A stretch of 64,000 bases of DNA from Cytophagaceae bacterium. GTDB taxonomy: Bacteria; Bacteroidota; Bacteroidia; Cytophagales; Spirosomataceae. Where the stretch lies: positions 62,001 to 126,000 of the forward strand of contig JAIXWQ010000013.1 in assembly GCA_027491195.1 (NCBI GenBank), read 5' to 3'. Numbering within the stretch: position 1 is the first letter of the stretch; every line of letters begins with the position of its first letter. The notes under the pieces were generated by a model. It made no database searches, had not been told where the DNA came from, and worked only from the letters and a program-made list of their open reading frames with translations. Below are positions 19,453-36,414 of the stretch, piece by piece. Position numbers and translations under genes: made by a program.

Positions 19453-19624
19453 GCCGGCAATCTCAGAAAAGCCACAGACAAATAGGGTCAATCGCGAAAG
19501 AAAATACAAACTATTTATTTAGCGGTCATAAATCTGCAGAATGCATTAAATCTCTGCCAAATAAAGTCAATCCCTTGGATACGAAACGATTAAAATGCTA
19601 TGTTTAGGTTATAAACTGTTCATT

Positions 19625-20455
19625 ATGTTCAATCAGAATCGCATACTCCGAGTTTTTAAGTTGATTACGTTGTTGAAAACGTATCCGGCTAAATCCATTA
19701 AGCGGCTAGCTCAGTCTTTGGAAATATCAGAACGCAGCTGTTATCGCTATATGGATTTATTAGCGGAGTTAGGGTTCGAGGTGAAGAAGGATGATCACAA
19801 TAAGTTTTCTCTACCGGCGGATCAGGTGGTAGAACCATTCACGAAGGAAGAGTCTCATTTAATTCAGGAGGTATTAAGCGTTTCTGTGAAGAATAACCCG
19901 CTGGTGGCTTCCATTAGGTCTAAATTGCCTTCCTTAGAGGAGTCGAATATCCTCGCGACGAATATTGTGCATGGGCATTTAGCTAAGTTAGTTGCCAAAA
20001 TCAATGACGCCATCACCCATCAAACGCAGCTCCTGATACAGCGCTATCAGTCTGCGAATACAGAAAGCATTTCGGATCGATTAGTGGAACCCATCGGGTT
20101 TACGGCGAATTACCAGTATTTGTGTGCTTTCGAAGTGGAGTCAAAACAGAACAAGTATTTCAAATTGGAGCGGATGGGATCTATTGAAAATTTAACGGAA
20201 ATCGTTAAATTTAAAGAACTACACCAACTTTTAAACCCAGATGTCTTCGGTTTTAATGACTCAAGAGAGAAGTTTTCTGTCAAACTGAAATTAAGCATGC
20301 GCGCTATGCTCTTCCTAAAAGATGATTATCCGGCAACGGCTGATTTTCTGACTGAACAAAAAGACGGCTCTTGGTTGCTAAGTGTGGAAGTGAATAGTAT
20401 GGAGCCGGTGGATAGGATAGTTAGAGGAATGCCGGGGGAGGTTATTTTTATCTAA
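19625..20455 (+). CDS. WYL-domain transcriptional regulator
   Basis: 276 residues from the ATG at 19625 (MFNQNRILRVFKLI); a start at 19595 adds ten unsupported residues. Residues about 5-60 hold a DeoR/HTH_11-type helix-turn-helix (LAQSLEISERSCYRYMDLL). Residues 140-205 are a WYL-like domain with YQSANTESISDRLVEPIGF, YLCAFEVESKQNKYFKLERM, followed by a winged C-terminal part. WYL regulators such as BrxR and CapW control defence loci. The gene ends 122 bases before the NERD-helicase start, pointing the same way, with a perfect inverted repeat in the gap. I infer that it regulates the operon. Confidence 0.85.
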   Translation: MFNQNRILRVFKLITLLKTYPAKSIKRLAQSLEISERSCYRYMDLLAELGFEVKKDDHNKFSLPADQVVEPFTKEESHLIQEVLSVSVKNNPLVASIRSKLPSLEESNILATNIVHGHLAKLVAKINDAITHQTQLLIQRYQSANTESISDRLVEPIGFTANYQYLCAFEVESKQNKYFKLERMGSIENLTEIVKFKELHQLLNPDVFGFNDSREKFSVKLKLSMRAMLFLKDDYPATADFLTEQKDGSWLLSVEVNSMEPVDRIVRGMPGEVIFI

Positions 20456-20486
20456 TAAACCAATTTATAATAATTGAACGAGTAAT

Positions 20487-20527
20487 TAAGTGACCAAGTT
20501 TTGTCACTTAGATCTCTTATACATTTG
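20487..20527 (+). promoter_or_regulatory. Promoter and perfect inverted repeat before the defence operon
   Basis: TAAGTGAC (20487-20494) and GTCACTTA (20503-20510) form an 8-bp perfect inverted repeat with an 8-base spacer. A -7 element TACATTTG lies at 20520-20527, about 50 bases before the ATG at 20578. A TTTTG (20499-20503) in the spacer sits near the expected -33 place, though the 16-base spacing is short. The repeat has no T-run, so an operator is more likely than a terminator. Confidence 0.6.
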
Positions 20528-20577
20528 ACCTAAGTTTACACATATTTTATTTTCAAATATTTTCATTTTATGATTTT

Positions 20578-22245
20578 ATGCCAGTAGTTTTTATCGATAA
20601 TTATGCAAATCAGAATCTTGAAAAAATTATTGTCAATCAAGATGGCAAAACACTATATGGGGAACTTTGGGTTTATCAACAGTTTTTAGCAATTAATGAA
20701 AATAAGTATTTGGATGATGAAGTCTGGTATTTAAAACATAATTACAATCTTTCATCTCATTCAGGTAGTAAAAAGAAAATTGAGGGTCAAATCGATTTTA
20801 TTTTACTTTCAAAATATGGAATATTAATAATTGAGGTAAAGGGTGGAGGATTAAGAGTAGATGAAAATGATTGCTATTTTTCATCAGGTGATGGAAATGA
20901 ATATGAGAGTCAGAATCCTTTTGTACAAGCAAAAGAATATGTTTATACATTAAAAAATTATATTAATTCTTCAATTTTTGTTTACCGTGCTATAATATTA
21001 CCACATGAAGCAGGATTTGAATTAAAAGGGCCCCAATTAGAAGGATATAAAGATATTTTCTTTTCAAAGGCTGATATTACAGGTCTTGATACAAGAGGAA
21101 TTCAAAATAAGTTTTTTGGATTTATTATTTCGTTAAATAAAAAGGCTAGAATAAATTCATTAAAGAAATCATTCATATCTCTAAATAATGATGATATTCA
21201 AAAAAAAGCCCAAGAACTTTATCCTTTATTGAATTCCAAAGAAATAAAAAGATTAAAATCGGAGTTGTTTCCCGTTCAATCTACTTATGGTTATAATCCT
21301 GATAAGATTAACAGTGAACTAATTAGCAAAGAAAATTATGAGATTTTAAATGGCTTACGAAGAAATAGTAATATAATTGTTCAAGGTGGTCCTGGAACAG
21401 GTAAAACTTCTCTAGCAATTAAATATTTAGCAGAAAATCTTTTGAAGCAGCAAAAAGGAATCTTTTTTTGTGCCAATTTATTAATCAGATCAAAATTAGA
21501 GTATATCATCCTCAATGATTACAAACTAGACCCGAATTGTATTTCATTTAGAGTATATTCAAATCACGTTACTATTGACAGCTTCACAAATGATGTGGAT
21601 TTTATAATATTTGATGAAGCACAAGAATATTTTGAAAAAGGTTTATATGATTTAATTGAGAAGGTTAATGTTAAGTTAGAAAAACCCAAATTACTAGTCT
21701 TGTATGATGCAGACCAATCAGTGGTTTCTAATTTAAATGAGTTAGAATGGTATACAGACTTTTTTATTGAAATGGGGTATTCTCATTTTTATTTTGATGA
21801 GAAATTCCGATCTATTCAAAATAAAGCTATTGCTGAAGTATCACAATGTATATTATTTAATGAGTATAATAAGATAAATTCAAAATTTGGCAATTTTCTT
21901 GTTTCAGTTTGTGATTTAAAATCCAAATTAGAAATAATCAAAGCAATAATTTCAGAAAAAAAATACACAAATTCTGAGAAAGTCATTTTAGTACAAAGCC
22001 AAATAATTGAGGAATTTTCTGCGATTATCTATGATTTTTTCAAATCAGACATTGAAGAGTTGACTGAGGCTAATATCAATATTCCTTCACATAAAATCAG
22101 ATTTACAAGTCCAATTAAATATAGAGGATTAGAGAATGATTTTGTTTGTCTTATAACAAAGGAAATAAATGATTCCACTAAAGTTCAAAATTATGTAGGA
22201 GTTACCAGGGCAATGTTAGAACTAAATATTATTTTATGGAAGTAA
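20578..22245 (+). CDS. NERD-nuclease / SF1 helicase protein, first gene of the defence operon
   Basis: 555 residues in two parts. The N-terminus is a NERD (nuclease-related) domain with PD-(D/E)xK residues: GELWVYQQF near 28, GQIDFILL (Asp73), IIEVKGG (Glu86, Lys88) and FVQAKEY near 115. The C-terminal 300 residues are an SF1/UvrD-like helicase: Walker A QGGPGTGKTS at 269-278, Walker B IIFDEAQE at 343-350, LYDADQS at 375-381, YRGLEND near 515, and YVGVTRA at 539-545. It would bind and possibly cut DNA while moving on it with ATP. It overlaps the next gene by 10 bases. This subunit is not one of the standard DISARM proteins I know. Confidence 0.85.
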   Translation: MPVVFIDNYANQNLEKIIVNQDGKTLYGELWVYQQFLAINENKYLDDEVWYLKHNYNLSSHSGSKKKIEGQIDFILLSKYGILIIEVKGGGLRVDENDCYFSSGDGNEYESQNPFVQAKEYVYTLKNYINSSIFVYRAIILPHEAGFELKGPQLEGYKDIFFSKADITGLDTRGIQNKFFGFIISLNKKARINSLKKSFISLNNDDIQKKAQELYPLLNSKEIKRLKSELFPVQSTYGYNPDKINSELISKENYEILNGLRRNSNIIVQGGPGTGKTSLAIKYLAENLLKQQKGIFFCANLLIRSKLEYIILNDYKLDPNCISFRVYSNHVTIDSFTNDVDFIIFDEAQEYFEKGLYDLIEKVNVKLEKPKLLVLYDADQSVVSNLNELEWYTDFFIEMGYSHFYFDEKFRSIQNKAIAEVSQCILFNEYNKINSKFGNFLVSVCDLKSKLEIIKAIISEKKYTNSEKVILVQSQIIEEFSAIIYDFFKSDIEELTEANINIPSHKIRFTSPIKYRGLENDFVCLITKEINDSTKVQNYVGVTRAMLELNIILWK

Positions 22246-24596
22246 CGTTTTATGAAATACATGAAGTTGTAATTGAGGCAATTGGGTTTAATGCTGCTGA
22301 TTCTGCGATATTAAAAATTATTGGAAAATGGTATTATAAATTTTTAAATTCAGATGAAGAAAATCTAATAATTCATATTCCAGAATTCAAAATTGATACA
22401 ATACCAAGGACTTATGATTACACGCGTATTTTCTCATTGACATATAGGCTTATAAATAAGCCTGAATTGTTTTCTTTTGAAGATACATCTCTGTTCAATG
22501 TTTTTGATTTTGATAGAAAGAAATCGTGTTTTTCAAATCAAACCAAATCCACTTTTGATTATCTCAAACAAGAGGGTGATTTGATACATTGGACTGAAAA
22601 TGTGATTGTCTCTAAAAATAGATTTATTCCTGTTTTTATTAAGGATCAAATAGATGGCTCCAGTTGGAGTAATATCTATAATACATTTAAAATTTTCAGG
22701 ATTATAGAGAACAGAGGATTAATAAATCACCCTGTTTTGATAAACCTTAAAGAAGACTTATGCCTTTCTTTATGCTCAGGAGAACCAATTTCTTCAGAAC
22801 AAATTATCCAAACTCTAAATTTAAATTGGGATACAAAATTATTTACTCAAGAAGATGCTATAAAACTAGAAGATAATTTACTTTCTCAGGATTTTACTAA
22901 TCAAATTTCGATTAAATATCCATACCATAAAAATATCCACTCCTATTTGCTTAACATCGGAAATAAAAGGTTGAGCGTAGTTTTTAATAATAGATTCTAC
23001 TACCAAAATATACATGAAGATTCAATTTTATTATTGCCAAAAGAATTAAATGGCGATGAAACTATAATAACTGATTTTTCAGAAAAAATCAAAGTATTTT
23101 ACACTTCCCATTCTTTATCATTATTCACTGAATTAAGTGAATTTAGGTCTGCTTGGCAGGAATACGAATTTAATAAATTCACTACGCCATTCCCAAAACA
23201 TTGGTTTTTGTTTATTAATCAAAGTCTTGAGAAAGATGAATGGTTAGAAATGTTTAAGTCAGATTATCCAAGTTTATCTGATAGACCTATCATAAATTCA
23301 ATAAAAAGAATAATTGACCTTTTATACGAACTAAATTGGAGTAGGTCTTATTTTGAAGAAGCTGATAATCAGATGTTTTTGCTTCCTGAAATTAAAGGTT
23401 TTAAAAAGAAAAAATTGGAGAAAGCCTTAAATTCTTTTAAGAGCTATGTGTTGGATATAAATTCAAATATTTTGTTTGTAGAAACCAAAGAAGATAATGA
23501 TTATAGTCAGTTCAAAAATTTAATAGTATTTGATTGTTTTAACATTATCAATTTGATTAATGTATTTCAGAAAAATGAAAATTTACAAATTCTAATACCG
23601 GATTTTCTTTATTTTAATTATCAGCCTTGGATCAAGTATCAATTGTTCAATTATCAGTTTGATGCTTTACTGAATCATAAACGAGAATTATTAGATTCTA
23701 ATTATTTTAATTTTAAAGAAAGATTCATTAACGAGAGGTCAGAATTAATTAGAAGAATTAAGTTTGATATTAAGGAATATCAAACTTTGTATATTGTCAA
23801 AGAGGGTATAGTTGAGATTGACGATAATTTAACATTAAGTGATGAGGATATAATTTTTAGAAATGATGAGGAATTGGAGCTTAGTCAAAATTCTATTTGC
23901 GAAAGTATTGATTATGATATATTAATAGAAACAACAGAAAGTGCTCTTTATGAATTTAATAGCAGAACTCACGTTTTGATACAAAGATCTACATTGATAT
24001 CATGTCCAGCTTCTCAGCTAAAAATTGGCGATTTTTTCATTTCTATTAATGAAATTAATTCAATAATTGATAAAGATTCAATTGTAAACAAACTTAGTAG
24101 AATTCCAGAATCTGTTCTTAAGTTTCAAATTGAATTGGGGAAAAAAGTTAATCCATATCAAATATTAGAAAACCAAGGAATAGTTTACAAAAATGAAAAG
24201 TACTTCAATGATAAGTATGTTATAAATGATTTAGAGTATGAATCTGATATGTTTATTCTCCCTAGAAGAAAAGAGAATTTGAGAATGATATGTGAATATC
24301 TTGGAATTAGTAAAATTGACATGAATCAAGCATGGATTTCATATTATGGTAGAAAACATATTAATGAAATTAAAGAAATGTATAAACATATTTTAAATCT
24401 TTGTATCGATGGGCAATATTTGAGCGAGAGTGAGAATCCAAATTTAATTATTAAAGTCGTACAGTTTTTAGAGGAAAAAAAAGAAATATTCCAGGAAGTT
24501 GAGGGCACAAATACAACAGATTTAGCGAAATCTATTGTTTCAGCAATAATAAATGAACTTTCATTTCATCAGGTTAAGGAAAATATAAGAATTTGA
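22236..24596 (+). CDS. Large unknown protein in the DrmE position
   Basis: 786 residues with no signal peptide, no membrane helix and no enzyme motif that I can see. It overlaps the NERD helicase gene by 10 bases and ends one base before the DrmA-like gene. The C-terminal 200 residues contain SCPASQLKIGDFFISI near 588-602 and a run ending in AWISYYGRKHINEIKEMYKHI. Class 2 DISARM has a protein of unknown function called DrmE at a comparable place, and the length and C-terminal style agree with that. The DrmE call rests on context and weak resemblance, not on a search. Confidence 0.5.
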   Translation: MEVTFYEIHEVVIEAIGFNAADSAILKIIGKWYYKFLNSDEENLIIHIPEFKIDTIPRTYDYTRIFSLTYRLINKPELFSFEDTSLFNVFDFDRKKSCFSNQTKSTFDYLKQEGDLIHWTENVIVSKNRFIPVFIKDQIDGSSWSNIYNTFKIFRIIENRGLINHPVLINLKEDLCLSLCSGEPISSEQIIQTLNLNWDTKLFTQEDAIKLEDNLLSQDFTNQISIKYPYHKNIHSYLLNIGNKRLSVVFNNRFYYQNIHEDSILLLPKELNGDETIITDFSEKIKVFYTSHSLSLFTELSEFRSAWQEYEFNKFTTPFPKHWFLFINQSLEKDEWLEMFKSDYPSLSDRPIINSIKRIIDLLYELNWSRSYFEEADNQMFLLPEIKGFKKKKLEKALNSFKSYVLDINSNILFVETKEDNDYSQFKNLIVFDCFNIINLINVFQKNENLQILIPDFLYFNYQPWIKYQLFNYQFDALLNHKRELLDSNYFNFKERFINERSELIRRIKFDIKEYQTLYIVKEGIVEIDDNLTLSDEDIIFRNDEELELSQNSICESIDYDILIETTESALYEFNSRTHVLIQRSTLISCPASQLKIGDFFISINEINSIIDKDSIVNKLSRIPESVLKFQIELGKKVNPYQILENQGIVYKNEKYFNDKYVINDLEYESDMFILPRRKENLRMICEYLGISKIDMNQAWISYYGRKHINEIKEMYKHILNLCIDGQYLSESENPNLIIKVVQFLEEKKEIFQEVEGTNTTDLAKSIVSAIINELSFHQVKENIRI

Positions 24597-24597
24597 T

Positions 24598-27500
24598 ATG
24601 AGCGGTTATAAAAAGAAGAGAGACAGTCTTGAATTGTTTGTAAGAGAACAAATAATAGGTCCTGGTGCATTCAATAAAAAATATTTTTTTTTAGAAAAAT
24701 TTGATAATTCTGAATTTAATGACCTTGATATAAAAGATATTGAGGTTAAAGCCTTAAATAACAAAAGTGAAATCATAACAGAGGCACCTGCTTATCAATA
24801 TAGTTCTGCGATATTATTTCCTGAGACTAGAACAAAGTTGCATAATGGAATTGTTGATAAGACCTCTAATATTTCTGATAATGAAGATATTCAATATTTA
24901 GAGGAAAATAATGCCGGTGCGGATGATGAAAATATTAAAGATGAAACCCGCGAAAGTTTAGTTAGTAAACAGCAAAATTATCCTAATTCTTTTGGTTTAT
25001 CATTTGTTGTAAATAGTAAGACTGATTTACAAAATGATTTGAATGTTGGAATTTCATTTAGGAAATACAAAAACATACCTAAAATAAATTGTTTTAATGA
25101 TAAATTGTCATGTTTAGTTTCAGAAAATACAGTTGAAATAGAACAAGCTATTTCAAGTTTTTTCTTTCCTTTATTTACAACAACTCGAATCAAAAAAAAT
25201 CTTTTTCTTCATTTAAATCAAGAAATAAATGTTGATAACATTTATGACGTAGATTATTTTCATTTAAATAATTATTTGCAATCTAAATTGTTGCAGTCTG
25301 TTAGATATGTGTTTGGCGAAGAATTAGTAGAATTGAAAAAAAATAACGGCTTTACATATTTTGGAATTAAAGCTAAAATTGATTTGCAGTTCTACTCAAT
25401 TAGGGATTCGGTAATCTTAAAGAGTGGCACTGAATATAATAATATAGTATCTGTTTATGATAAAAATCTTATACAATTCATTAAGGATAAGTTAAGAGAG
25501 GATATAGGTAATTACGCAAAGTATAAATCTCTAATTAATGAATTAGAAATATTTAATCAGTTAAAAGATTATGTGGCAGATTTAAAATCAATCTTCAAGT
25601 CGTCAAATGCAACCCCAGTTTGGGAGTGTAAATCCTTTGATGATATTAAATTATCCTTACCTCTATTTGAGGGTGGCCGAAATGTATATAGATCGAAGGA
25701 ATTAACTCTTGATTTTGAAAATAGTGAAATTTCTGATTTAAAATATTGCGTTCAATATATTCGGAAATATGATGATATATATATCAAGATTATTGTTTTA
25801 AACAAAGCTTATATTCTTCTCGAAGAAAATGAACCACCACAGTTAAATAAAAAGGATGAAGCCAATAAATTGGCATATTTTGGAGTTAAACTTAAAATAG
25901 AAGAGAACGTCAAGAATCAACTTCAACATTATAATCCACCTCAATTTTTAGCTTTTGATGAAGAAGATAATTTCAATAAACTACTTTATAGAAATTTTCA
26001 CGATTTTGGGGAAGGTTATAATACTTCTGTGGACTGGGGTAAAAATGTTAATGGATTAAATTTTATTTCTACTGAGTTTTTACCGGAACAAGAAACACCT
26101 AAAGTCGATTTTAAACCAAGTAAAATTGTAGATGGTAAAATTACGTCTCGATTAAATTTAATAAGCGAAGGAATTTTATCAATGAGGTATATTTCGTCAT
26201 TATCTGATGCAAGTGACGAAGATATTCTAGATGGGTTAACAGAATTTGTCAATGAATACAAATTATGGATAGATGAAAAGAAAAATGAAATTGAACTTCA
26301 AGATAATCTTCATGAAAGTCAGATTGATTTATTGTCTAAGCAATTGTTGGCATGTGAAAATGATTATAATAGGCTAGTTAGAAATATTAGTTTATTGCGG
26401 CGTGATCGAAAAGCAATTACAGCTTTTCGAATGATGAATACTGCAATGTTTATGCAATTGCATCACAATATTTTGAAAAATCAAAAAAATGAAGATTTAA
26501 CTAATGAATTATCGGAAAGTTATTACAGTAATGTTAGAATTCTAGATGAAAATGGAATTGAAACCGATTATAAATGGCGGTCATTCCAAATTGCTTTTAT
26601 CTTATTAAATATTGATTCATTTGTAAAACCTGACATTGATGATAATACGGTTACAAACGTTTTTTCTGAAGGGTGGCCAGAAAGAAATGAAATTGCCGAT
26701 TTGGTATGGTTTCCTACTGGTGGAGGTAAAACGGAAGCCTATTTGGGAATAATTGCGTTTTTAATTGGATACAGGCGTTTTACAAAGGGTGAGTCTGGTA
26801 ATGGCACTACAGTTTTAATGAGGTATACATTACGATTGTTGACGTTACAGCAATTTCAAAGAGCGACATTACTTATTTGTGCCTTAGAAGTTATTCGAAA
26901 AGAAAATTATAAGTTATCTCACAATTGCACTTTAGGTGGAGAGCGAATTTCAATAGGATTATTTGTAGGTGGTGATTCTTTGCCAAACTCCTGGAAGGAA
27001 ACAGGTTTTTCTACAGGAAGTATGGAGAAAGAACTTGATAAGATTAAAGGGTATATTTCATCTAGAGAAGAAATTAGTACAAATCTACCTTTTACAGACT
27101 GCCCTTGGTGCGGTCATGGATTGTTTGTTTATAAGGATCTAAATAATATTTCTCATAAGTCTGGTGGTGAAGTTTATGGGATCAATAGTCAATTAAATAT
27201 TTGTTGTAATAATATTTCTTGTTCCTTCAGTGGAATTGGGCGTAATAATAGACCTACTAATGATTATAGTTTGCCATTTAGATTATTTGATGAAGATATT
27301 TACAAATTCCCACCTACTTTACTTTTTGGTACAGTCGATAAATTTGCAGCATTAGCAAATAATGTTTCTTCAATTCCAGCAGAAAGAAACAAAGATTCAA
27401 GACGCTTTTTTGGTGCAGGACATAATCACAAAACTTTGCCTCCTGAATTAATTATTCAAGACGAGTTGCATTTGTTATTAGGGCCTTTAGGGTCTGCGGT

Positions 27501-28914
27501 TGGGTTGTTTGAAAAAAGTATTGATTATTTATGTACTTATGAAGAAAATGGACTCAAGATTAAACCTAAAATTGTTACTTCCACAGCTACTACTAGAAAT
27601 ACTGACAAGCAAATATTTGCATTATTTAACAGAAGGTCAGAGATTTTTCCAAAGCAAGGAATACTGGCAGATGACTCTTTTTTTGCCTATTATGAAAGAA
27701 ATCAAAATAAAATTCAAGAGTATATAGCTAATAGGAAATATATTGGAGTATTGCCAGTTGGTAAAACCCAAGTATGGATGCAACTTAGGATAGCTTCTAT
27801 ATCTTTAGCTCATAGAGTAAAATATCTAACAGAGATTTTTCCAAAAAATGAAATTTTAGAAAAGCCAGAATCCTTAGTTGCCTATTTGAATATTTTTGAT
27901 TTTTATCATACTGTATTAACCTATTTTAATAGTTTAAAGGATGTTGGAAAAACTCAATCTCAATTAAGTCATTATTTACCTGGGGATGTAAATTTTGTAG
28001 TAAAGAACACATTGGCCTGGAGTTTTCTGGACAAATTAATTAGAGATGAAAGCAAAATTGATTATTCAGAATTAACGGGGAGGCTTAATGGTGAAGAAGT
28101 TAAATCAAATTTATCAATTATTGAAAGAAAGTGGAATCTGTTAAATAATGATAATGGCAATTTAATCCTTAATTCAAAAAATCCACCTGAATTTGTAATA
28201 TCTACAAACATGATTTCAGTTGGAATTGACGTTTCAAGATTTAATACTATGATTATAAGTTCAATGCCAAGAAATATTGCTGAGTATATACAAGCATCCA
28301 GTAGGGTTGCTCGAAGTGTAGAAGGCATTGTATTTACTGTTCATCATCCATTTAAATCAAGAGATATTTCGCATTATCAAAAATTCAAAGAATTTCATGA
28401 GAAGTTTTATAGTTATGTAGAGCCAATATCTGTAACACCTTTTGCAAGCAAATCCATGGAAAGATATTTAGCCATGTATCTTTCTGTTTTAGTTAGGCAT
28501 AATACAACCTTAGGACTGATGAATAATTCTGATGCTTCTTTTATTAATGACGACAAAATTAAAATCATAAAAAAAATAATAGAAGATGAAATTATTGAAG
28601 TCATGAATAATGCATCAAAACTAGATGAACATTTAAAAAGCAGGTTAGCAGGTGTTTTTTCCAGTGTAGATGGTATTATCTCAACAGATGAACTCATTGA
28701 TTTAAATAATAATATTGAAAATTTGTTACAACGTTGGATTTTCAGATTAACGGGTAGTGAACCATATATAGACCTTTGTTACAGAAATAAAGATAATATT
28801 AATGAATCTCTCTTTATTACATCAAGTGATAACAATTATTCTGACCATTGGAAGGTTGGGCATTCTTTGCGTGATATAGATCCATCTGTAGTTATTAAAA
28901 CCGTTCAACAATAG
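24598..28914 (+). CDS. drmA: DrmA-like DISARM helicase
   Basis: 1438 residues, the length and order of a DISARM DrmA. Helicase motifs: Walker A PTGGGKT at 706-712, RYTLRLLTLQQFQRA near 742-756, DEXH-type QDELH at 954-958, TSTATTR near 999, NMISVGIDVSRF near 1204 and QASSRVARS at 1232-1240. A zinc-ribbon insert has Cys835, Cys838, Cys869/870 and Cys875. The N-terminal 650 residues are the long DrmA-specific part without known motifs. DrmA with DrmB is the shared core of DISARM and is thought to load on and trap or degrade foreign DNA. Gaps to its neighbours are one and four bases. AT-rich compared with host genes. Confidence 0.9.
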   Translation: MSGYKKKRDSLELFVREQIIGPGAFNKKYFFLEKFDNSEFNDLDIKDIEVKALNNKSEIITEAPAYQYSSAILFPETRTKLHNGIVDKTSNISDNEDIQYLEENNAGADDENIKDETRESLVSKQQNYPNSFGLSFVVNSKTDLQNDLNVGISFRKYKNIPKINCFNDKLSCLVSENTVEIEQAISSFFFPLFTTTRIKKNLFLHLNQEINVDNIYDVDYFHLNNYLQSKLLQSVRYVFGEELVELKKNNGFTYFGIKAKIDLQFYSIRDSVILKSGTEYNNIVSVYDKNLIQFIKDKLREDIGNYAKYKSLINELEIFNQLKDYVADLKSIFKSSNATPVWECKSFDDIKLSLPLFEGGRNVYRSKELTLDFENSEISDLKYCVQYIRKYDDIYIKIIVLNKAYILLEENEPPQLNKKDEANKLAYFGVKLKIEENVKNQLQHYNPPQFLAFDEEDNFNKLLYRNFHDFGEGYNTSVDWGKNVNGLNFISTEFLPEQETPKVDFKPSKIVDGKITSRLNLISEGILSMRYISSLSDASDEDILDGLTEFVNEYKLWIDEKKNEIELQDNLHESQIDLLSKQLLACENDYNRLVRNISLLRRDRKAITAFRMMNTAMFMQLHHNILKNQKNEDLTNELSESYYSNVRILDENGIETDYKWRSFQIAFILLNIDSFVKPDIDDNTVTNVFSEGWPERNEIADLVWFPTGGGKTEAYLGIIAFLIGYRRFTKGESGNGTTVLMRYTLRLLTLQQFQRATLLICALEVIRKENYKLSHNCTLGGERISIGLFVGGDSLPNSWKETGFSTGSMEKELDKIKGYISSREEISTNLPFTDCPWCGHGLFVYKDLNNISHKSGGEVYGINSQLNICCNNISCSFSGIGRNNRPTNDYSLPFRLFDEDIYKFPPTLLFGTVDKFAALANNVSSIPAERNKDSRRFFGAGHNHKTLPPELIIQDELHLLLGPLGSAVGLFEKSIDYLCTYEENGLKIKPKIVTSTATTRNTDKQIFALFNRRSEIFPKQGILADDSFFAYYERNQNKIQEYIANRKYIGVLPVGKTQVWMQLRIASISLAHRVKYLTEIFPKNEILEKPESLVAYLNIFDFYHTVLTYFNSLKDVGKTQSQLSHYLPGDVNFVVKNTLAWSFLDKLIRDESKIDYSELTGRLNGEEVKSNLSIIERKWNLLNNDNGNLILNSKNPPEFVISTNMISVGIDVSRFNTMIISSMPRNIAEYIQASSRVARSVEGIVFTVHHPFKSRDISHYQKFKEFHEKFYSYVEPISVTPFASKSMERYLAMYLSVLVRHNTTLGLMNNSDASFINDDKIKIIKKIIEDEIIEVMNNASKLDEHLKSRLAGVFSSVDGIISTDELIDLNNNIENLLQRWIFRLTGSEPYIDLCYRNKDNINESLFITSSDNNYSDHWKVGHSLRDIDPSVVIKTVQQ

Positions 28915-28918
28915 GAAC

Positions 28919-31036
28919 ATGGCCTTAAAGAAATATTTTGAGTATAATCAAGCTAATGAATCTATTAGTAAATATAAACTTCTTTCTGCCTATGGCGGTC
29001 CAGGCTCTATTCTTCATACTTCATATGGCAGTATAATTATTTCATGTATTGAAGAATGGGGGTTTCTTAAAAAAGTTCTAGATATTCAAAAAGAAGCAAT
29101 TGAAGCCGGTAAAAGAGATAAAGAGATTAATAACTATGTTAAAGAACAAGCAAACCTTGAACGTAATGGGTCAATAGGAATTTCAAATGATTCTCGTTTG
29201 TTGGAGATGTTAAAACAAAGAAAAGGATTAATGGAACTTAAATATTTAGTATTAATCCCTGATATAGAAGTTCAAACTTTTTCAAACAAAATCAAATCTG
29301 ATGGAAATACACTAGCTATTAACAGTTCTTATATGCCTAAAGTATTTGCTGATGAGAGCAATCACTATAGAACATATAAAGAATGGTATAAAGATTGGCT
29401 TGATAAGGATAAAAAACAAGGAGAAAGAGAATCAGAAACTACAAATAGATTTTTTCCGCCAAAATTTAAAAAACAAAATGGTTTTGTAGGAAATCTAATT
29501 CAAGATAACATCGTATTGATTTGTGAACATGGTCACATAAGTGACTTTCCTTGGGCTAAATTTTTAAGATGGAGGAATGATTCTCCAGGCGAAATTTATT
29601 CAGACCTACCTGTTGATTTGTTTAGTTCGTTGCCTTGTTGTGGAAGTGATGATAAAATTACAGCTAATATAAAAATCTCATCAAGTACTGCTAATGCCTC
29701 CGGCTTTGACGGGAAGTGGATAAAGTGTGAAAATTGCGGTAGGCAAACATCTTTAAAAGGATTAATGACTGTTAAAATTAAATGTTCAGGTCATAAACCT
29801 TGGGAAGCATCAACTTCTCATAATGGAGAACTAAAATATCATTCTGGAAATAAAGATTCAAGAAATCAAACACCTCCATTGGAAAATTGTGCTTCTAATA
29901 AACCAATGAAGGTAGCATTAACAACGGGAAATAACCTTTATTATGCCAGATCTGTTTCAAGTATTTATATGCCAGATGAGTTGTTTTTAAGTGATGCTTT
30001 ATTAAAGAAAAAAGAACTTGAAATGGAGATGGAACTTGCAAAAGAAGAAAATAGATTTGATGATTGTATTAGAATTAATAATGAGATTAGGTTGATTGAT
30101 AATGAAATCGAAAAGCAGAGTTTTGATGAAACCACGGATGTAGAAAAAGATATTATTTATAGATACGAGGAGTTCAAAGTTCTATCTATTAAAAGTGAGG
30201 ACCTAATCAATATAGATAAGGTTAATGAAGATTTAAAAGTAAAAGATGTTACAAAGAATCTTGATGGGACTAAATTTTCTAAATATTTCTCAAGAATACT
30301 TAGGATTGATAATATGAAATTAACCACTGCTCAATTAGATTTTTCTAGAGTTGTCCCTGTTGATTCTGATGCTGATGGAATTATTTCAAAGAATATATTT
30401 CGAAGTAAGGCGGAAAGCATTCGAGTTTACCCAGTAGTGGAAAATTATGGCGAAGGTATTTTTTTTGCATTTGATATTGAATTAATTAATGATTTTTCAA
30501 AAAATAATTCCGCAATAGATTCTATTAATGAAAAATTAAGTACACTTAAAAGAAATAGTGATACATTTTCGGAAGGGGCGATTCAATTTGGTTTAGATAA
30601 TAATTGGCAACTTTATTTAGTGCATTCATTTGCTCATTTAATTATGAGAGAATTGGAGTTTAAATGTGGATATCCAACTTCTTCGTTATCTGAAAGGATT
30701 TATGTTTCTAATGATTTGAGAAATAATATGTATGGCTTTATGATTTATACAGCAGAAGGTGCTGAAGGAAGTATGGGAGGTCTTATAGCTCAAACAAGAC
30801 CAGATAATTTGAATAAATTAATTACTAATGCACTTGAGAGGGCGAAAATATGCAATAGTGACCCATTATGTTGGGAATCAGATGGTCAAGGACTTTTTGA
30901 ATTAAATTTCGCATCTTGTTTTTCATGTAGTTTAGTGAGTGAAACATCTTGTGAACATCGAAATATTTATTTAGATAGAAGAATTTTAGTTGATGAAGAA
31001 AGTGGTTTTTTTAAGGACGCATTAAATAATGTTTAA
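28919..31036 (+). CDS. drmB: DrmB-like DUF1998 protein
   Basis: 705 residues. The C-terminal 170 residues are a DUF1998 domain with HSFAHLIMRELEFKCGY near 565, GFMIYTAEGAEGSMGGL near 610 and a late Cys cluster (CWESDGQG, then FASCFSCSLVSETSCEHR near 665-682). Earlier Cys/His motifs (CEHGHISDFPW near 203, CCGSDDK near 241, CENCGRQTS near 272) suggest zinc binding. DrmB is the constant partner of DrmA in DISARM. The start lies 5 bases after the drmA stop, and the end overlaps the next gene by 8 bases. Confident family call. Confidence 0.9.
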   Translation: MALKKYFEYNQANESISKYKLLSAYGGPGSILHTSYGSIIISCIEEWGFLKKVLDIQKEAIEAGKRDKEINNYVKEQANLERNGSIGISNDSRLLEMLKQRKGLMELKYLVLIPDIEVQTFSNKIKSDGNTLAINSSYMPKVFADESNHYRTYKEWYKDWLDKDKKQGERESETTNRFFPPKFKKQNGFVGNLIQDNIVLICEHGHISDFPWAKFLRWRNDSPGEIYSDLPVDLFSSLPCCGSDDKITANIKISSSTANASGFDGKWIKCENCGRQTSLKGLMTVKIKCSGHKPWEASTSHNGELKYHSGNKDSRNQTPPLENCASNKPMKVALTTGNNLYYARSVSSIYMPDELFLSDALLKKKELEMEMELAKEENRFDDCIRINNEIRLIDNEIEKQSFDETTDVEKDIIYRYEEFKVLSIKSEDLINIDKVNEDLKVKDVTKNLDGTKFSKYFSRILRIDNMKLTTAQLDFSRVVPVDSDADGIISKNIFRSKAESIRVYPVVENYGEGIFFAFDIELINDFSKNNSAIDSINEKLSTLKRNSDTFSEGAIQFGLDNNWQLYLVHSFAHLIMRELEFKCGYPTSSLSERIYVSNDLRNNMYGFMIYTAEGAEGSMGGLIAQTRPDNLNKLITNALERAKICNSDPLCWESDGQGLFELNFASCFSCSLVSETSCEHRNIYLDRRILVDEESGFFKDALNNV

Positions 31037-32096
31037 AGAAGAAAACAAATATTGGTTAAATTCATTGTTTAGCGATACCAGGTTATTAGGTAATAGCGAT
31101 AAAATTCAATTATTTGAATCAAAATATAAAGAAGAATTCCGTTTAAGAGTTTTTGCTGACTTAAAGACAGGGAAATTTAAAGATGTTTTAGAAGTAATCA
31201 GTTGGCGTGATTCAAATAATATTATCCACTTTTTTGACGAAGATTTTATTTTTTTCTATTTAATGCTAAATGAAAATTTGTATTTGATACAAAAGCATTT
31301 AAAAAGTTTATTTCCTGCTTGTCAATTTTCTGATTTTGAAATTTCAAAAAAATATAATTTCCTAAGATTTGTTTTCTTCAATTTGAATGATTTCAACGAT
31401 TCTTTTGTTAATCTTGACTTCAAAATCTTTAAGCGTTATTGTATTGATGAATTAAAAATTATTACAGAAAATGAAATTAATGATAGTATAAATCGTGATA
31501 GTAGGATTAATACTTTGGAAAATAAAATAATTGAAAAATTATGGCAACTAGTTTTTCAATTTGAATTTCGAGAAGCAATGGAATTATTACTATTGTTTAC
31601 CAAATCGTTTAATGCTCATTATGCGATTGATCGGTGGGAAACAGTCTTTAATTTGAAATCAATTATTCTTTTAAATAAATCAATCGATATTAATAAATCA
31701 GCCACTAAAGATGATACGTCAAATTCAATGAATTTCATTTTTACCTTTTGTAAAGATTTGTTTGAAGTTGGCAACATGTTTAATATAAACATTCCAGTGA
31801 TAAATTTCTTGAATTTGAATTATAGCAAAGGATTTGAAATCAAGCTAAATGAATTTGATGAACTTATTCATAAACTAAAAAGTTTAGAAGTAATTAATTC
31901 ATCTTTGAAATTTTATCAATTAATTGATTTGCTAAATGTTGAGAATTCAAATTTGAGTAAAACGAGGATAAATCAAATTTTAACTGAAAAAGTAATGAGA
32001 GGGGATTATTTAGAGGATGTATCCTGGAAAGAAAATTCTAATTACGATATATATGGTTTGATAATTAGGAATGGATATTACTTTAATCTAATGTGA
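31029..32096 (+). CDS. Unknown protein at the usual drmC position
   Basis: 355 residues, rich in Lys, Asn, Phe and Ile, with no signal peptide or membrane helix. DISARM loci normally carry drmC, a phospholipase-D-fold nuclease, after drmB. No HxK(x4)D motif, the PLD mark, is present. The C-terminal third is mostly predicted helix (SLKFYQLIDLLNVENSN) and ends in a short hydrophobic piece (YGLIIRNGYYFNL) that resembles a winged-helix wing. It overlaps drmB by 8 bases, so it belongs to the operon. Function unknown; it ends 14 bases from the stop of the convergent endonuclease gene. Confidence 0.75.
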   Translation: MFKEENKYWLNSLFSDTRLLGNSDKIQLFESKYKEEFRLRVFADLKTGKFKDVLEVISWRDSNNIIHFFDEDFIFFYLMLNENLYLIQKHLKSLFPACQFSDFEISKKYNFLRFVFFNLNDFNDSFVNLDFKIFKRYCIDELKIITENEINDSINRDSRINTLENKIIEKLWQLVFQFEFREAMELLLLFTKSFNAHYAIDRWETVFNLKSIILLNKSIDINKSATKDDTSNSMNFIFTFCKDLFEVGNMFNINIPVINFLNLNYSKGFEIKLNEFDELIHKLKSLEVINSSLKFYQLIDLLNVENSNLSKTRINQILTEKVMRGDYLEDVSWKENSNYDIYGLIIRNGYYFNLM

Positions 32097-32110
32097 GAAA
32101 TCAAACTTGG

Positions 32111-33493
32111 TTAGTTGTTATATATTTCGTCCCTTATATATGTTTTGTTTAGCCAAAAACATTGCTTAGTGAATCTATTTAGACCGCTAATTTTATCAAT
32201 TACAGGTAAGGGAAAAGTATCTTCTGCATTTTGAGCATGTGGTCGGACATGTGCAATAGAGTTAAAGTTGTTGTTTGGGAAATTTGTTTTTCTGGTACCA
32301 TTCTCTAAAATTTTCTTTACTATATTTCCATTTGATACTATTTCCCTAGTTTTTTCCCAAACTTGTTTTGCTATTTCTATATCTGAAAAAGGCATATTCC
32401 AGAATTTTGCTTTTTTTAGAATGAGCTTTTTTTCATTTAACTGATAAAATACAAATAAAAATTTGTGTTCAAGGACATCTTTAAATGATGAATCCTCCCA
32501 TTCTTCATTGACGATTTCCTCAAACTTAAAGTTAGGGAAAGATATACTTTCTTTGGGTAGCTCATTTTCATTCAAGCGAACTGACTTAATAATTATATCA
32601 GCTTTTTCAAATTCTTCTATTTCTGCTTTAATATCAACCCCGAGTATTTTTTTGGATAATGACGCAAAGTAGCTTTTGGCTTTGTTATTTAATTGAATTC
32701 CAAGGTTTTCTTCAATGTCACATGTGGACTTATTATAGAATTTTTCAAATTTTGAAATAACTAATTCTTCAAAATTTAAATCCAGAATAGGTTTTTCAAT
32801 TATTTTCCCAAAATTGGCACCATTTTTATGGCTCAGCTTTCCTATAACATGGTTTAAATATCCTTGTTTTAAGGAAAAAGCTCGTTGTTTAGCAAGTATA
32901 ACACTTCTAGGTTGTTGTCTAGGGTTACCTCCTTTTCCACCCTTTGTACAAGCTCCTAAATATAAAGTATCTCCCTCTGACAATTCGTGAGCTCGACCTT
33001 CTCTGACTTTATTTTGTATTTTCTCCCAATCAGATTTAATAATTGCCAAATCGTCATCAGGAATTTTCCAATCGCCAACTAACTTAATTACAAAATCAAT
33101 TACATCGACTCCACTTTCATGCAGATATAGGATTAACAATAAATGATTGTTCTTGATTAAGAAAGATGATGTTTCAAAGTCCTGGTCAATGATTTCATTA
33201 TAATTAATGATGCTGAGGACTAACCTTTCTTTTGCAGATAAATGATTCTTTTTGCTTTTTTTTAATGGGGAAGATTTAAGCTCTATACCCACTTCGTTGA
33301 AGTCTGGTTCAGAAACAGAGTTTGGATTATAATCGAAATAATACTTTTCTAAAATCTGGCCAAAATTTCCTTTACCGGTATAACCGTTGTTTATAACATC
33401 TTCTCCGCATACCTGCCGAAGGGATTTCTCTTTTAATTTGGAAGCATATTCCAATATTGAGTTTATATCTCTTCTAGAATAGCTAAAACTCAT
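32111..33493 (-). CDS. Sau3AI/MutH-type restriction endonuclease
   Basis: 460 residues. The N-terminal domain has the MutH/Sau3AI active site: Asp64 in EPDFNEVG, Glu71 and Lys73 in IELKS, with Asp-to-Glu spacing 7 as in MutH (Asp70/Glu77/Lys79). The C-terminal half repeats this fold without the catalytic residues, and both halves end in a similar region: GDWKIPDDDLAIIKSDWEK near 139 and WNMPFSDIEIAKQVWEK near 369. This duplicated layout is that of Sau3AI, which cuts GATC. It is transcribed after the methyltransferase (4-base gap). The recognition site is inferred from the family only. Confidence 0.85.
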   Translation of the reverse strand: MSFSYSRRDINSILEYASKLKEKSLRQVCGEDVINNGYTGKGNFGQILEKYYFDYNPNSVSEPDFNEVGIELKSSPLKKSKKNHLSAKERLVLSIINYNEIIDQDFETSSFLIKNNHLLLILYLHESGVDVIDFVIKLVGDWKIPDDDLAIIKSDWEKIQNKVREGRAHELSEGDTLYLGACTKGGKGGNPRQQPRSVILAKQRAFSLKQGYLNHVIGKLSHKNGANFGKIIEKPILDLNFEELVISKFEKFYNKSTCDIEENLGIQLNNKAKSYFASLSKKILGVDIKAEIEEFEKADIIIKSVRLNENELPKESISFPNFKFEEIVNEEWEDSSFKDVLEHKFLFVFYQLNEKKLILKKAKFWNMPFSDIEIAKQVWEKTREIVSNGNIVKKILENGTRKTNFPNNNFNSIAHVRPHAQNAEDTFPLPVIDKISGLNRFTKQCFWLNKTYIRDEIYNN

Positions 33494-33497
33494 TATA

Positions 33498-34772
33498 TTA
33501 TATATTTTCGGCGAGTACTTTACCTATTCGTTCAATTACACCAACAACTAAAGCATTGCCCATAAAAAATGCACGTTTTGTAGCTGAGACACCTTCCAAT
33601 TCAGTATGGTAATCAGGGAACATATTCAAACGCTCAAGCTCAACAGGCGTTAATCTTCTCATTCCCATTGAAGTATTAATTACATGCTTAAATCGAGATG
33701 GCGAACTCCCTCCTTCACCGGTAATTATTGTCCTTGAAGGTTTATTAATATCATCAGGGAAAACCATACCTCCCTCACTATAATTATAAGCAAATCCATC
33801 TGTTTTAGTTCTTATCTCTTTTTTTGCCCCTTTCAGATAACTCCATTTATCAATCATTTCCGAATCGATATAAAATTCATCCGAAACTTTGCCCTTCTCC
33901 AAAACATCCTTCAATAAAACAGCTTCTCCATCAAAATTTGGAGATGTTTTTACTGTTGTAACCTTTCCATCAATCATAACGCCGGAATTCAAGAAAGGAC
34001 TAGCTAGTTTGTTTTTATTAAATTCATTTGAGATTTCAACAATATCACCCGATAATTCAAATGACTTAAAATCTAATTCCGATGGTTTATTAACTGGAAA
34101 TGCTTCAGCGATAATTCCATCCTCATATATCCATTCATTAGGTGAAACTTTCAAAAGATTCTTAAACAGGGTAGTAGATTTATGGTAAGCCAAAATAAAA
34201 GTCCTTCTTCTTCGCTGAGGAAAACCAAAATCTGCGGCATTAATAATACGCCATTCTACTGCGTAACCCAAATCGTTTAAACTTTTTAGGATAATAGCAA
34301 AGTCTCTACCACGTTGCTGAGCAGGGGAATTTATTAAACGGTCAACATTCTCCAAAAACAAGTACTTTGCGGGTTTCTTTTGACTACTTAGAATATTATG
34401 AATTGACCACCAAAGCACCCCTTTCTTACCAATCAAACCTTTGGAGTTTTTTAATGTGGTGGCCACAGAATAGTCTTGGCAAGGGAATCCGCCAACTAAT
34501 AAATCATGCGCTGGAATCTCCTCTACTTGTACCGTTGAAATATCAACATTTGAATGACATTCATCTCCCCATTTGCTTGCATAAACATCTGATGCATGTT
34601 GGGTTTTTGTGGAAGGCTCCCATTGATTACTCCAAACAACCTCATAGTTCGAGTTTAATTTCTTTTTATATCCAGAGGTAGCAGAAAAGCCTTCCCATCC
34701 TTCTAATCCCAATCTAAACCCACCTACACCGGCAAATAATTCAGCAACTCTTATTTTGTCCTTCATATTCAA
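33498..34772 (-). CDS. C5-cytosine DNA methyltransferase
   Basis: 424 residues with the ordered C5-MTase motifs: motif I LFAGVGGFRLGL at 12-23, motif IV GGFPCQDYS with the catalytic Cys98, motif VI LENVDRLINS near 138, motif VIII RRRRTFILAY near 188, and motifs IX/X RRLTPVELERLN and FFMGNALVVGVIE near 377-416. The target-recognition region lies about 230-340. It is the first gene of a two-gene unit with the Sau3AI-like enzyme, so it protects host DNA. It may also serve as the DrmMII-type partner of the neighbouring DISARM-like operon, which has no methyltransferase of its own. A start at 34766 is also possible. Confidence 0.93.
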   Translation of the reverse strand: MNMKDKIRVAELFAGVGGFRLGLEGWEGFSATSGYKKKLNSNYEVVWSNQWEPSTKTQHASDVYASKWGDECHSNVDISTVQVEEIPAHDLLVGGFPCQDYSVATTLKNSKGLIGKKGVLWWSIHNILSSQKKPAKYLFLENVDRLINSPAQQRGRDFAIILKSLNDLGYAVEWRIINAADFGFPQRRRRTFILAYHKSTTLFKNLLKVSPNEWIYEDGIIAEAFPVNKPSELDFKSFELSGDIVEISNEFNKNKLASPFLNSGVMIDGKVTTVKTSPNFDGEAVLLKDVLEKGKVSDEFYIDSEMIDKWSYLKGAKKEIRTKTDGFAYNYSEGGMVFPDDINKPSRTIITGEGGSSPSRFKHVINTSMGMRRLTPVELERLNMFPDYHTELEGVSATKRAFFMGNALVVGVIERIGKVLAENI

Positions 34773-34778
34773 TTATTT

Positions 34779-34795
34779 TTAACCTGAATGGTTAA
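34779..34795 (-). promoter_or_regulatory. Short inverted repeat at the methyltransferase start
   Basis: TTAACC (34779-34784) and GGTTAA (34790-34795) lie 7-23 bases before the methyltransferase start. In the transcript this makes a small hairpin close to the start codon. It could be an operator for autoregulation or a translation control. The remaining 170 bases to the next gene are AT-rich with no clear signal. Confidence 0.35.
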
Positions 34796-34964
34796 CATAA
34801 AATTAATCTTTTTCTAGATTATAATTGTGAATGGATCTTCTATTTATTCGCTTGGTCACAATTACTGTTAGTTTTTCTCCGCCATTTCAGCTCAATTAGT
34901 AATAATCAAATAGTTCAAATTAGTAAATAACGTTACTTTGTGTTATCACGACAAACCGGTAGAA

Positions 34965-35864
34965 ATGGCAAGCATTATTGATGTATTCACTAAACAAAGT
35001 CAAGCACTAATTCATTACAACTTTCCTGAGTTATCTAATGGCTTTGAAACGTGCTGGTATCCCTCGGCTTGCCATGATTTTCTTCCTGTCAATAAATTCA
35101 AAAAGGACAAAAATGTAATTTTCGTCTATAATGATATGTTGGCAATCAACGATATGTTTGCCTATGAAAGGCCGAATCCATTATTCTTTCCTGGGAAATT
35201 TATTTCAAGAGAATTATACAAAGGGGATATTGAAGTCCTTTGGTATTGGGAGCTAAATCTGGAGGAAATATGTTGGAATCCGAATAGAACTATATGGTAT
35301 TCAAGTATAACCATGAAGGCACCTAAAGTCTATTTATTTAAAATTAGATCTAATACAGATGTGAAAATCATCCCATTGATATATCTCTCTTTTGAGAATA
35401 CGAATTTTTTTTATGACTATCTACTTCATTATGATGTTCAAATTGATACGCTTATTCATATAAATGACGGTGGAATGTCCTTGGGCTGTAGTAGATACAA
35501 AATGGACTATATCTATTTGAATTTAGATAAAATTGGAACGAAAGAAATTTGGGTAGACTATACTTTTAAAGATAAGAAAAAGCATATTTTAGATTTTTCT
35601 CGATTTGAACATTATACACCTAAATCTTTGCGGGTGAAGTATTTAGAAGAAGTTGAATCCGATTACCGAAGAGAAGAACTAGAAAGAAGATCTCGTCAAA
35701 TAGAATACGAAATGGGAAGATGGAATAGATTTGAAGAGCCGCCTTTTGAGAACTCCATAGTTGAAAGGTTATTTACCGAGTGGGAATTAATGCCTATCTC
35801 GCCAAGCATCCAGGGATACCATTATGTGAAAAAATCATGTATGGCTAACTTAAATTTACTCTAG
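34965..35864 (+). CDS. Hypothetical protein, first of a two-gene unit
   Basis: 299 residues from the ATG at 34965; an upstream TTG at 34938 would add nine residues. I recognise no family. It is rich in Tyr and Trp, has several short beta-strand patterns (YLFKIRSNTDVKIIPLIYL near 122) and a charged helix near 230-255 (EEVESDYRREELERRS). No signal peptide or membrane helix. It is divergent from the methyltransferase and 13 bases from the next gene, so it is likely a two-gene operon at the defence island's edge. Confidence 0.6.
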   Translation: MASIIDVFTKQSQALIHYNFPELSNGFETCWYPSACHDFLPVNKFKKDKNVIFVYNDMLAINDMFAYERPNPLFFPGKFISRELYKGDIEVLWYWELNLEEICWNPNRTIWYSSITMKAPKVYLFKIRSNTDVKIIPLIYLSFENTNFFYDYLLHYDVQIDTLIHINDGGMSLGCSRYKMDYIYLNLDKIGTKEIWVDYTFKDKKKHILDFSRFEHYTPKSLRVKYLEEVESDYRREELERRSRQIEYEMGRWNRFEEPPFENSIVERLFTEWELMPISPSIQGYHYVKKSCMANLNLL

Positions 35865-35877
35865 ATACAACTACACA

Positions 35878-36414
35878 ATGCAAAGGATAATAAACTTCAT
35901 CCAAAACCTAAGCACTGAAGGTGTAGACGTAATTGTCATCACGGAAAATCCGGAAGTCTTCTATGGTATGAATAGGGTTTCAGTAGTAGGCGATTGGAAT
36001 GATTCTTGGAAATTAGTAGATGAGAAAGTAGGGGAGAATCGCCGTATTCTTCACCTAGATAATCCTTCTGATGGTTTGCAAGAGTTAGATGGTGTAGAAA
36101 CCTATGTACAAGCTGGCATTTTAGGCGACAGTCTACTTTGGTTTAATTCAATCGAGGATAAGTTACCTAGGCAGGAAGCACATGAAGTCTTCAATCAACT
36201 TAAGCACTTAGTTGTTATCTTAAATGGAAAGGATTTCTACACTTCTTTGGAGACATTGAAAAGCAAGCTTCCAGATTATAAACACCAAGACTTTATCGTG
36301 GGCCCTCTTTCAAATAAGCAGGATTCTGATGAATTGTTTTATTATCGCCCTCAAGCTTTAACTCTCATAATTGAGTGGCCTAGGATGGTTGATAGGGAGG
36401 GTGTCCCTAAATAA
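35878..36414 (+). CDS. Hypothetical protein, second of a two-gene unit
   Basis: 178 residues, cytoplasmic. The pattern VDVIVITENPEVFYG, then GVETYVQAGILGDSLLWF, has alternating strands and helices but no motif that I can name. The C-terminus HQDFIVGPLSNKQDSDELFYYRPQALTLIIEW is not typical of a secreted protein. It follows its upstream partner after 13 bases, so the two are expressed together. Function unknown. Confidence 0.6.
   Translation: MQRIINFIQNLSTEGVDVIVITENPEVFYGMNRVSVVGDWNDSWKLVDEKVGENRRILHLDNPSDGLQELDGVETYVQAGILGDSLLWFNSIEDKLPRQEAHEVFNQLKHLVVILNGKDFYTSLETLKSKLPDYKHQDFIVGPLSNKQDSDELFYYRPQALTLIIEWPRMVDREGVPK

Follow-up and report, generated by a model that had tools for sequence, protein, structure and literature searches.

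DISARM operons are divided into classes, for which we use the definitions in PMC9252829: class 1 is composed of DrmA, DrmB, DrmC, DrmD and DrmMI, while class 2, the type II of PADLOC, is composed of DrmA, DrmB, DrmC, DrmE and DrmMII. It was reported that DISARM can do without DrmC, which is often absent from its operons, that the route of DNA degradation is unknown and that the ATPase activity of Serratia DrmAB is lower on 5-methylcytosine DNA (PMC9142583). A related group, ARMADA/TALON, is defined by a YprA helicase with a fused OB-CON-DUF1998 module and a C-terminal nuclease or RNase H domain, and it was stated that many uncharacterised DISARM-like classes exist (PMC12458937). In this paper we looked at a 64,000-nucleotide stretch of DNA from a Cytophagaceae bacterium (contig JAIXWQ010000013.1), called the window, whose positions are used as coordinates, and at a five-gene operon within it that encodes DrmA, DrmB, a NERD-SF1 helicase and two further proteins, X (786 amino acids, aa) and Y (355 aa). 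We consider it fairly probable that this operon is a DISARM-related, class-2-like antiviral system with a NERD-helicase effector.

DrmA, DrmB and the DISARM classes

The five genes lie on the forward strand between 20578 and 32096, in the order NERD-SF1 helicase, X, DrmA, DrmB and Y, with intergenic spacing of -10, +1, +4 and -8 bases. The original prediction had described a DrmA-like helicase and a DrmB-like DUF1998 protein in a tight five-gene operon led by a NERD-SF1 helicase; the family scans and the spacing bear this out, and the first gene combines PF08378 with an SF1 helicase. The second gene, X, had been left undescribed. The DrmA product matches the NCBIfam model DrmAS (NF038325) at E 5e-213 with 710 bits, below the cut-off of 950, and the PADLOC DrmA model at 1e-174. 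The short DrmA model scores above the long one (DrmAS 710 against DrmAL 448 bits), the DrmA of PDB entry 7s9v is matched at E 1.9e-111, and the motifs PTGGGKT (706), QDELH (954) and QASSRVAR (1232) are found. DrmB, an MZB/DUF1998 protein encoded by a separate gene, is matched by NF038324 (DrmB_fam; E 2e-86, 290.9 bits, above the cut-off of 240) and by PF09369 (3.6e-6).

As separate genes, DrmA and DrmB fall outside the ARMADA/TALON definition. TALON (YprA helicase, NERD nuclease, TPR-CSD and TBP) resembles the window operon in joining a YprA-family helicase to a NERD nuclease, but its helicase is ARMADA-like with the fused C-terminal module and it has TOTE genes (PMC12458937), whereas here DrmA and DrmB are split, the NERD domain is part of an SF1 helicase fusion, and no TPR-CSD or TBP gene shows up in family scans of the operon. 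The helicase family also suggests another reading, in which the genes are not antiviral and are instead a helicase set for DNA repair or plasmid control that derives from the YprA/MrfA family, some members of which, such as MrfA, also act in repair (PMC12458937). We regard this as very improbable, since the same source describes a consistent split between helicase and DUF1998 protein for DISARM alone, and since the locus sits in a variable defence site and is patchy: in our overlapping genome samples X was matched only in G000, G198 and G778 (genomes are labelled G and loci L).

By the profiles used, the locus resembles class 2 but fits neither DISARM class under the PADLOC definitions, because no DrmC, DrmD or DrmMI was found and X has only a weak DrmE-type match in its C-terminal part. 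For DrmC, a profile made from three plasmid DrmCs gave a best match of only E 0.27 among the open reading frames of the window. A drmC hidden elsewhere in the genome was looked for and none turned up; the sole PLDc_2 match is a 758-aa protein that, by its signature, looks like a polyphosphate kinase. The absence of DrmC alone does not exclude DISARM in a loose sense, because DISARM operons are often without it. DrmD and DrmMI had no match among the seven locus proteins (PADLOC and NCBIfam) or in positions 14001-42000 of the window (our own profiles). The DrmE model had no match in X (P0002) and its G198 homologue (PADLOC and NCBIfam) or in the L008 and L012 homologues (PADLOC), and a DrmMII-type C5-cytosine methyltransferase was not found within the window operon.

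The likeness to class 2 consists of the split DrmA and DrmB, the short DrmA model as the best one, the C5 methyltransferase with which relatives start the operon, and the place of X directly before drmA, where DrmE-like genes stand elsewhere. Unlike class 2, this operon has a NERD-SF1 helicase added and an extra gene Y after drmB, no DrmC was found, the DrmE model is unmatched and the window copy is without an operon methyltransferase. Class 1 also has the split DrmA and DrmB, but its DrmC, DrmD and DrmMI are not seen here, and in our quick DrmA tree the six DrmAs of class 1 loci group apart. The earlier proposal of a new DISARM variant that matches neither class fully agrees with this picture, and with a gene set kept as a unit in relatives.

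Protein X has no Pfam or NCBIfam match, and PADLOC gives DrmMII only, at E 0.047. By hhalign, its C-terminal part compared with that of a DrmE set gives scores of 35.8-46.4 and probabilities of 9-52%, with a null maximum of 18.7 in 30 column shuffles. The score drops to 25.7-32.4 once the remote X candidates of L084 and L085 join the profile; these ~830-aa proteins have only weak similarity to X (25.8). The idea that X is a full DrmE found no support: the X profile retrieves no DrmE and single DrmE candidates score 11-22. The AlphaFold models reach a mean pLDDT of 63.7 for X and 56.4 for Y, the helical prediction for Y being of low confidence, and a Foldseek search of the X fold against PDB gave nothing at E<=0.001 and a short partial mini-intein likeness over ~45 columns. 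For Y, Pfam gives nothing below E 0.067, and PADLOC and NCBIfam give nothing at E<=0.1. Y was also tried as a degenerate DrmC and rejected (hhalign score of 13.6 against the DrmC set), so the original description of a 355-residue protein of no known family in the place of DrmC after drmB holds, with no family match over cut-off and no DrmC similarity.

Both proteins change faster than their neighbours. Among the window and six relatives the NERD helicase, DrmA and DrmB have mean pairwise identities of 69-71%, X has 50% and Y has 36%, a ranking (three core proteins, then X, then Y) that holds in 18 of 21 pairs; the window Y itself is 21-23% identical to those of the six relatives. Such fast evolution of X and Y would fit contact with changing phage or complex partners. 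Pattern-based scans of viral contigs found no relative of X or DrmA, and a tblastn search of plasmids found no match to X.

The NERD-SF1 helicase and the conserved gene order

In the product of the first gene, P0001, Pfam detects NERD (PF08378, 6.3e-14) at 36-142 and PF09848 (1e-9) at 265-421, and PADLOC detects RTasNERD-Hel (E 1.2e-19) and Nhi (E 1.6e-10). Nhi and reverse transcriptase-associated NERD-helicases are single-gene or reverse-transcriptase-linked systems. P0001 shares with them the NERD-helicase architecture and the PADLOC matches, but it is encoded by the first gene of a DrmAB operon. The E..DF..E(V/I)K motif, Walker A and DE(A/G/M)Q are intact in all 19 aligned NERD-SF1 homologues that hold the region, and Pfam NERD is detected in 18 of them, the exception being L052, which was recognised by alignment only. 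In the domain table of a review NERD is placed under Mokosh type I and Nhi-like systems and not under DISARM (PMC10952713), and in the portions of the literature that our search reached, which did not include the founding DISARM paper, there was no account that makes a NERD-SF1 helicase part of DISARM.

Two short DrmA peptide patterns, run against 84,980 species genomes and confirmed by tblastn, gave eight loci, all from records titled Bacteroidota or its members; one of these loci, L015, covers the same stretch of contig as G198 (L003), which had already served as a row of the DrmA query. As far as the contigs reach, all eight keep the order NERD-SF1 helicase, X, DrmA, DrmB, Y: the NERD helicase is found in 7/7 loci that show its place, X in 8/8 (in one by its end only) and Y in 7/7. 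G778 likewise has X, DrmA, DrmB and Y, and its contig stops before the NERD position. Across the window and the six relatives measured, gene spacing lies between -31 and +10 bases. A survey for the same gene order had been proposed earlier, and we count the recurrence in related loci as more than chance. L084 and L085 open with the same two genes as the relatives, in which a C5 methyltransferase comes first (see below), and also have DrmA-DrmB; there the ~830-aa gene stands where X would be.

Another possible option is that the locus is an ordinary class 2 DISARM from which both drmC and the methyltransferase have been lost, with the NERD helicase, X and Y as passengers that have nothing to do with it. 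Annotated DISARM operons frequently lack DrmC (PMC9142583), relatives do carry a C5-type methyltransferase and X may be a remote DrmE. However, the presence of X in every scan locus, and of Y and the NERD helicase in each of the seven that show their places, together with overlapping genes and a NERD-SF1 catalytic site kept in 19/19 homologues, makes passengers quite improbable.

The recurrence of NERD-SF1 with DrmAB extends beyond these loci. In a phylum sample of 395 genomes the DrmA model matched 44 at E<=0.001 and 20 at E<1e-100, the latter being called strong-DrmA genomes. A NERD-SF1 helicase adjoins DrmA/DrmB, or lies one gene off as in the window, in 12 of the 20; these span 7 genera, with 6 of the 12 in one genus. 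DrmC was found in 2/20, both class 1 loci (G706 and G743), so that in the sampled phylum NERD-SF1 is the commoner of the two. On plasmid pROB02 of Rhodococcus opacus a DrmE-like gene, a NERD helicase, DrmA and DrmB stand together. A single clade of NERD-bearing DrmAs was rejected in the quick DrmA tree (AU p 2e-70), which has several long branches, from which L098, L011, L013 and L093 were dropped beforehand and in which L046 is labelled NERD, a label that it did not have in the clade test.

We tentatively suggest that these loci may represent a third broad kind of DISARM, 'NERD-DISARM', in which DrmAB goes with NERD-SF1 instead of DrmC, near a C5 methyltransferase, which would be its own or one borrowed from a neighbouring type II restriction-modification (R-M) system. 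Because NERD-carrying DrmAs are spread over the DrmA tree, the association would then have been gained more than once or be ancient. A different nuclease-helicase in a DrmC-less operon suggests a testable answer to the question of how such systems might cut viral DNA, and a conserved NERD-SF1 helicase with intact catalytic residues beside DrmAB offers a direct genetic test.

Some loci show other gene sets around DrmB. L006 and L023 (Photobacterium plasmids) have DrmA, DrmB and then an SF1 helicase without Pfam NERD, as well as a ~470-aa unknown gene. The genes after DrmB vary by lineage, for example an HNH endonuclease (L084:5052-5768) and a NOV_C protein (L051:1097-1873), and behind the L008 operon (L008:17749-20429) lie a 495-aa gene without PADLOC match and a 394-aa DpdB/DndB-like gene.

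C5 methyltransferases and the Sau3AI pair

Next to the operon the window carries what by family is a Sau3AI type II R-M gene set, a Sau3AI-family restriction endonuclease with a C5 methyltransferase. The endonuclease scores 515 bits against a cut-off of 300 (NF040973), and the methyltransferase matches PF00145 at 3.9e-59 and is the only PF00145 match in the genome (98% complete). Both families had been named correctly in the original prediction, including a true Sau3AI-like endonuclease, but the two genes are not convergent with each other as was stated there: both lie on the minus strand with 4 bp between them, and the convergence is between this pair and the operon. PADLOC matches the methyltransferase to MTase_II (PDLC03329, 3e-171) far better than to DrmMII (PDLC02653, 8.5e-35).

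In relatives of the operon a different enzyme is seen. A C5 methyltransferase of ~570 aa is the first operon gene in 6/6 relatives with upstream sequence; there is no trace of it upstream of the window operon, and a search of the window's genome, made without a positive control, found no homologue. As a side observation, the operon methyltransferases (L008:4261-5982 and relatives) share a ~190-aa C-terminal extension that is absent from the window's methyltransferase.

By counting over a wider set, a C5 methyltransferase is found in or near 17/20 NERD loci (16 by hidden Markov model, and L024 by annotation since our open reading frame set lacked its gene) against 1/18 other DrmA loci. The three misses, L013, L087 and L093, are short or cut contigs. 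L006 and L023 were flagged by the helicase profile and, having no Pfam NERD, were put among the 18; otherwise the counts are 17/22 against 1/16. L011 and L046, whose contigs stop short of the NERD position, are not in the count, and the NERD set includes six loci of one genus and the near-duplicates L009/L010, L013/L015 and L092/L093. The methyltransferase is upstream in the operon in nine of the 17 and outside or downstream in eight, including the window. Among the other named plasmid loci an annotated cytosine methyltransferase is found, besides L024, only in L007. R-M partners are seen in the window (Sau3AI), in L024 (annotated NaeI and Vsr) and in L092 (restriction endonuclease and Vsr), with a weak restriction endonuclease match in L090.

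One explanation of this arrangement is that DISARM and the adjacent Sau3AI R-M pair are one unit, in which the R-M methyltransferase gives DrmAB its self mark and the endonuclease makes the loading ends. It would fit the methyltransferase of the pair being the genome's sole PF00145 match and the relatives' ~570-aa enzyme missing in the window. Seven other NERD-DrmA loci without an upstream operon C5 methyltransferase (L051, L090, L092, L094, L095, L096 and L024) also have one nearby; of these, L090, L092 and L024 were examined for R-M partners, which were identified at L092 and L024, with a weak restriction endonuclease match at L090. Yet a tblastn search of the 11 loci in the window's DrmA clade gave no match to the Sau3AI endonuclease. 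In the genus, 37 other genomes hold one homologue of 57% (G030) and one weak match (G037). The two genes run on the strand opposite to the operon and, as a type II R-M system, would be expected to work by themselves. Defence islands often contain R-M genes, and so does other cargo of this same site. We therefore hold a single unit to be unlikely. The composite of DISARM and type II R-M that had been proposed earlier is at best weakly supported: the endonuclease without match in the clade and the relatives' own C5 methyltransferase speak against it, while borrowed methylation is a possible arrangement, because the R-M methyltransferase is the sole PF00145 match and seven similar NERD-DrmA loci have a nearby C5 methyltransferase. 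This pattern gives a way to test if the self mark of a defence system can be supplied by an R-M system next to it.

Possible mechanism and the genomic site

In the antiviral reading, DrmA and DrmB would together make up a split YprA helicase, which would load onto incoming phage DNA where this is single-stranded or has a 5' overhang, and X and Y may be sensor or adaptor subunits in the places held by DrmE and DrmC in class 2. The NERD-SF1 helicase would be the resident nuclease, unwinding and cutting DrmAB-engaged DNA in place of DrmC. Self would be marked by C5 methylation, in relatives by the dedicated ~570-aa methyltransferase and in the window possibly by the neighbouring Sau3AI-type enzyme. 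Complex formation, the nuclease role, self-marking and anti-phage activity are what we infer from comparing sequences.

Several points weigh against this reading. The anti-phage activity of the operon is itself inferred, the DrmA score falls under the NCBIfam cut-off, and no fold was identified for X or Y in the structure models and searches above. The X-DrmE link is a weak lead that fails against single DrmE sequences. The association of NERD with C5 methyltransferases rests on 4-5 independent contrasts, with a median p of 0.125 (paired test, L046 and L087 left out); all go in the same direction or are tied, and because only 4-5 contrasts are left after descent is allowed for, the association is a pattern and no proof. 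Finally, 8/20 strong-DrmA genomes have no NERD helicase counted as adjacent, so not all DrmAB systems need NERD. Two of the eight are class 1 (G706 and G743), two are cut by a contig end (G778 and G886), and in G793 2 kb of upstream sequence are visible. G707 (3e-8) and G385 (7e-5) have weak NERD-helicase profile matches that were excluded from the count, and G634 has no match to that profile.

The operon and the R-M pair (Table 1) lie in a region with a GC content of 27-34% in 2-kb windows across 20001-36000, against 34-48% in the rest of the window.

Table 1. Features of the locus; positions refer to the 64,000-nucleotide window
Feature	Position	Strand	Length and product	Family or structure match	Remark
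HTH-WYL regulator	19595..20455	+		PF13280, PF08279	head of cargo site
Perfect inverted repeat TAAGTGAC-N8-GTCACTTA	20487..20510		8-bp arms, 8-base spacer		between WYL gene and operon
NERD nuclease - SF1 (Schlafen-g3/UvrD-like) helicase fusion	20578..22245	+	555 aa, P0001	PF08378, PF09848	
Protein X	22236..24596	+	786 aa, P0002		fast-evolving; C-terminal ~130 aa weakly DrmE-like; position kept in relatives
DrmA, YprA/DISARM-type SF2 helicase	24598..28914	+	1438 aa, P0003	NF038325, PDB 7s9v	
DrmB, DUF1998/MZB protein	28919..31036	+	705 aa, P0004	NF038324, PF09369	
Protein Y	31029..32096	+	355 aa, P0005		fastest evolving; all-helical prediction, low confidence
Sau3AI family restriction endonuclease	32111..33493	-	460 aa	NF040973	neighbour outside conserved unit
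C5-cytosine methyltransferase of Sau3AI pair	33498..34772	-	424 aa	PF00145	possible self-marker

The HTH-WYL gene in front of the operon is kept in genomes of the same genus with different genes behind it. Ten cargo proteins at the sites of sister species were scanned; among them are R-M enzymes of types I and IIG, as well as an SNF2 helicase together with a methyltransferase and a dGTPase. We read the site as a probable defence hotspot and the WYL gene as a resident of the site, not of the system; its role as a dedicated regulator of the operon was rejected, as it stays while the cargo changes. The inverted repeat between the WYL gene and the operon may be an operator or a terminator, and no counterpart was seen at five related sites. 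The WYL-headed sites with different defence cargo in sister species are L039 and L041-L043, and the WYL gene gives a two-piece match in G019 and has an in-frame stop in G031. Beyond the R-M pair, a DUF7663 gene and a 178-aa gene (34938-36414) recur near a WYL fragment in L045, from another species of the genus, with 47% and 36% identity.

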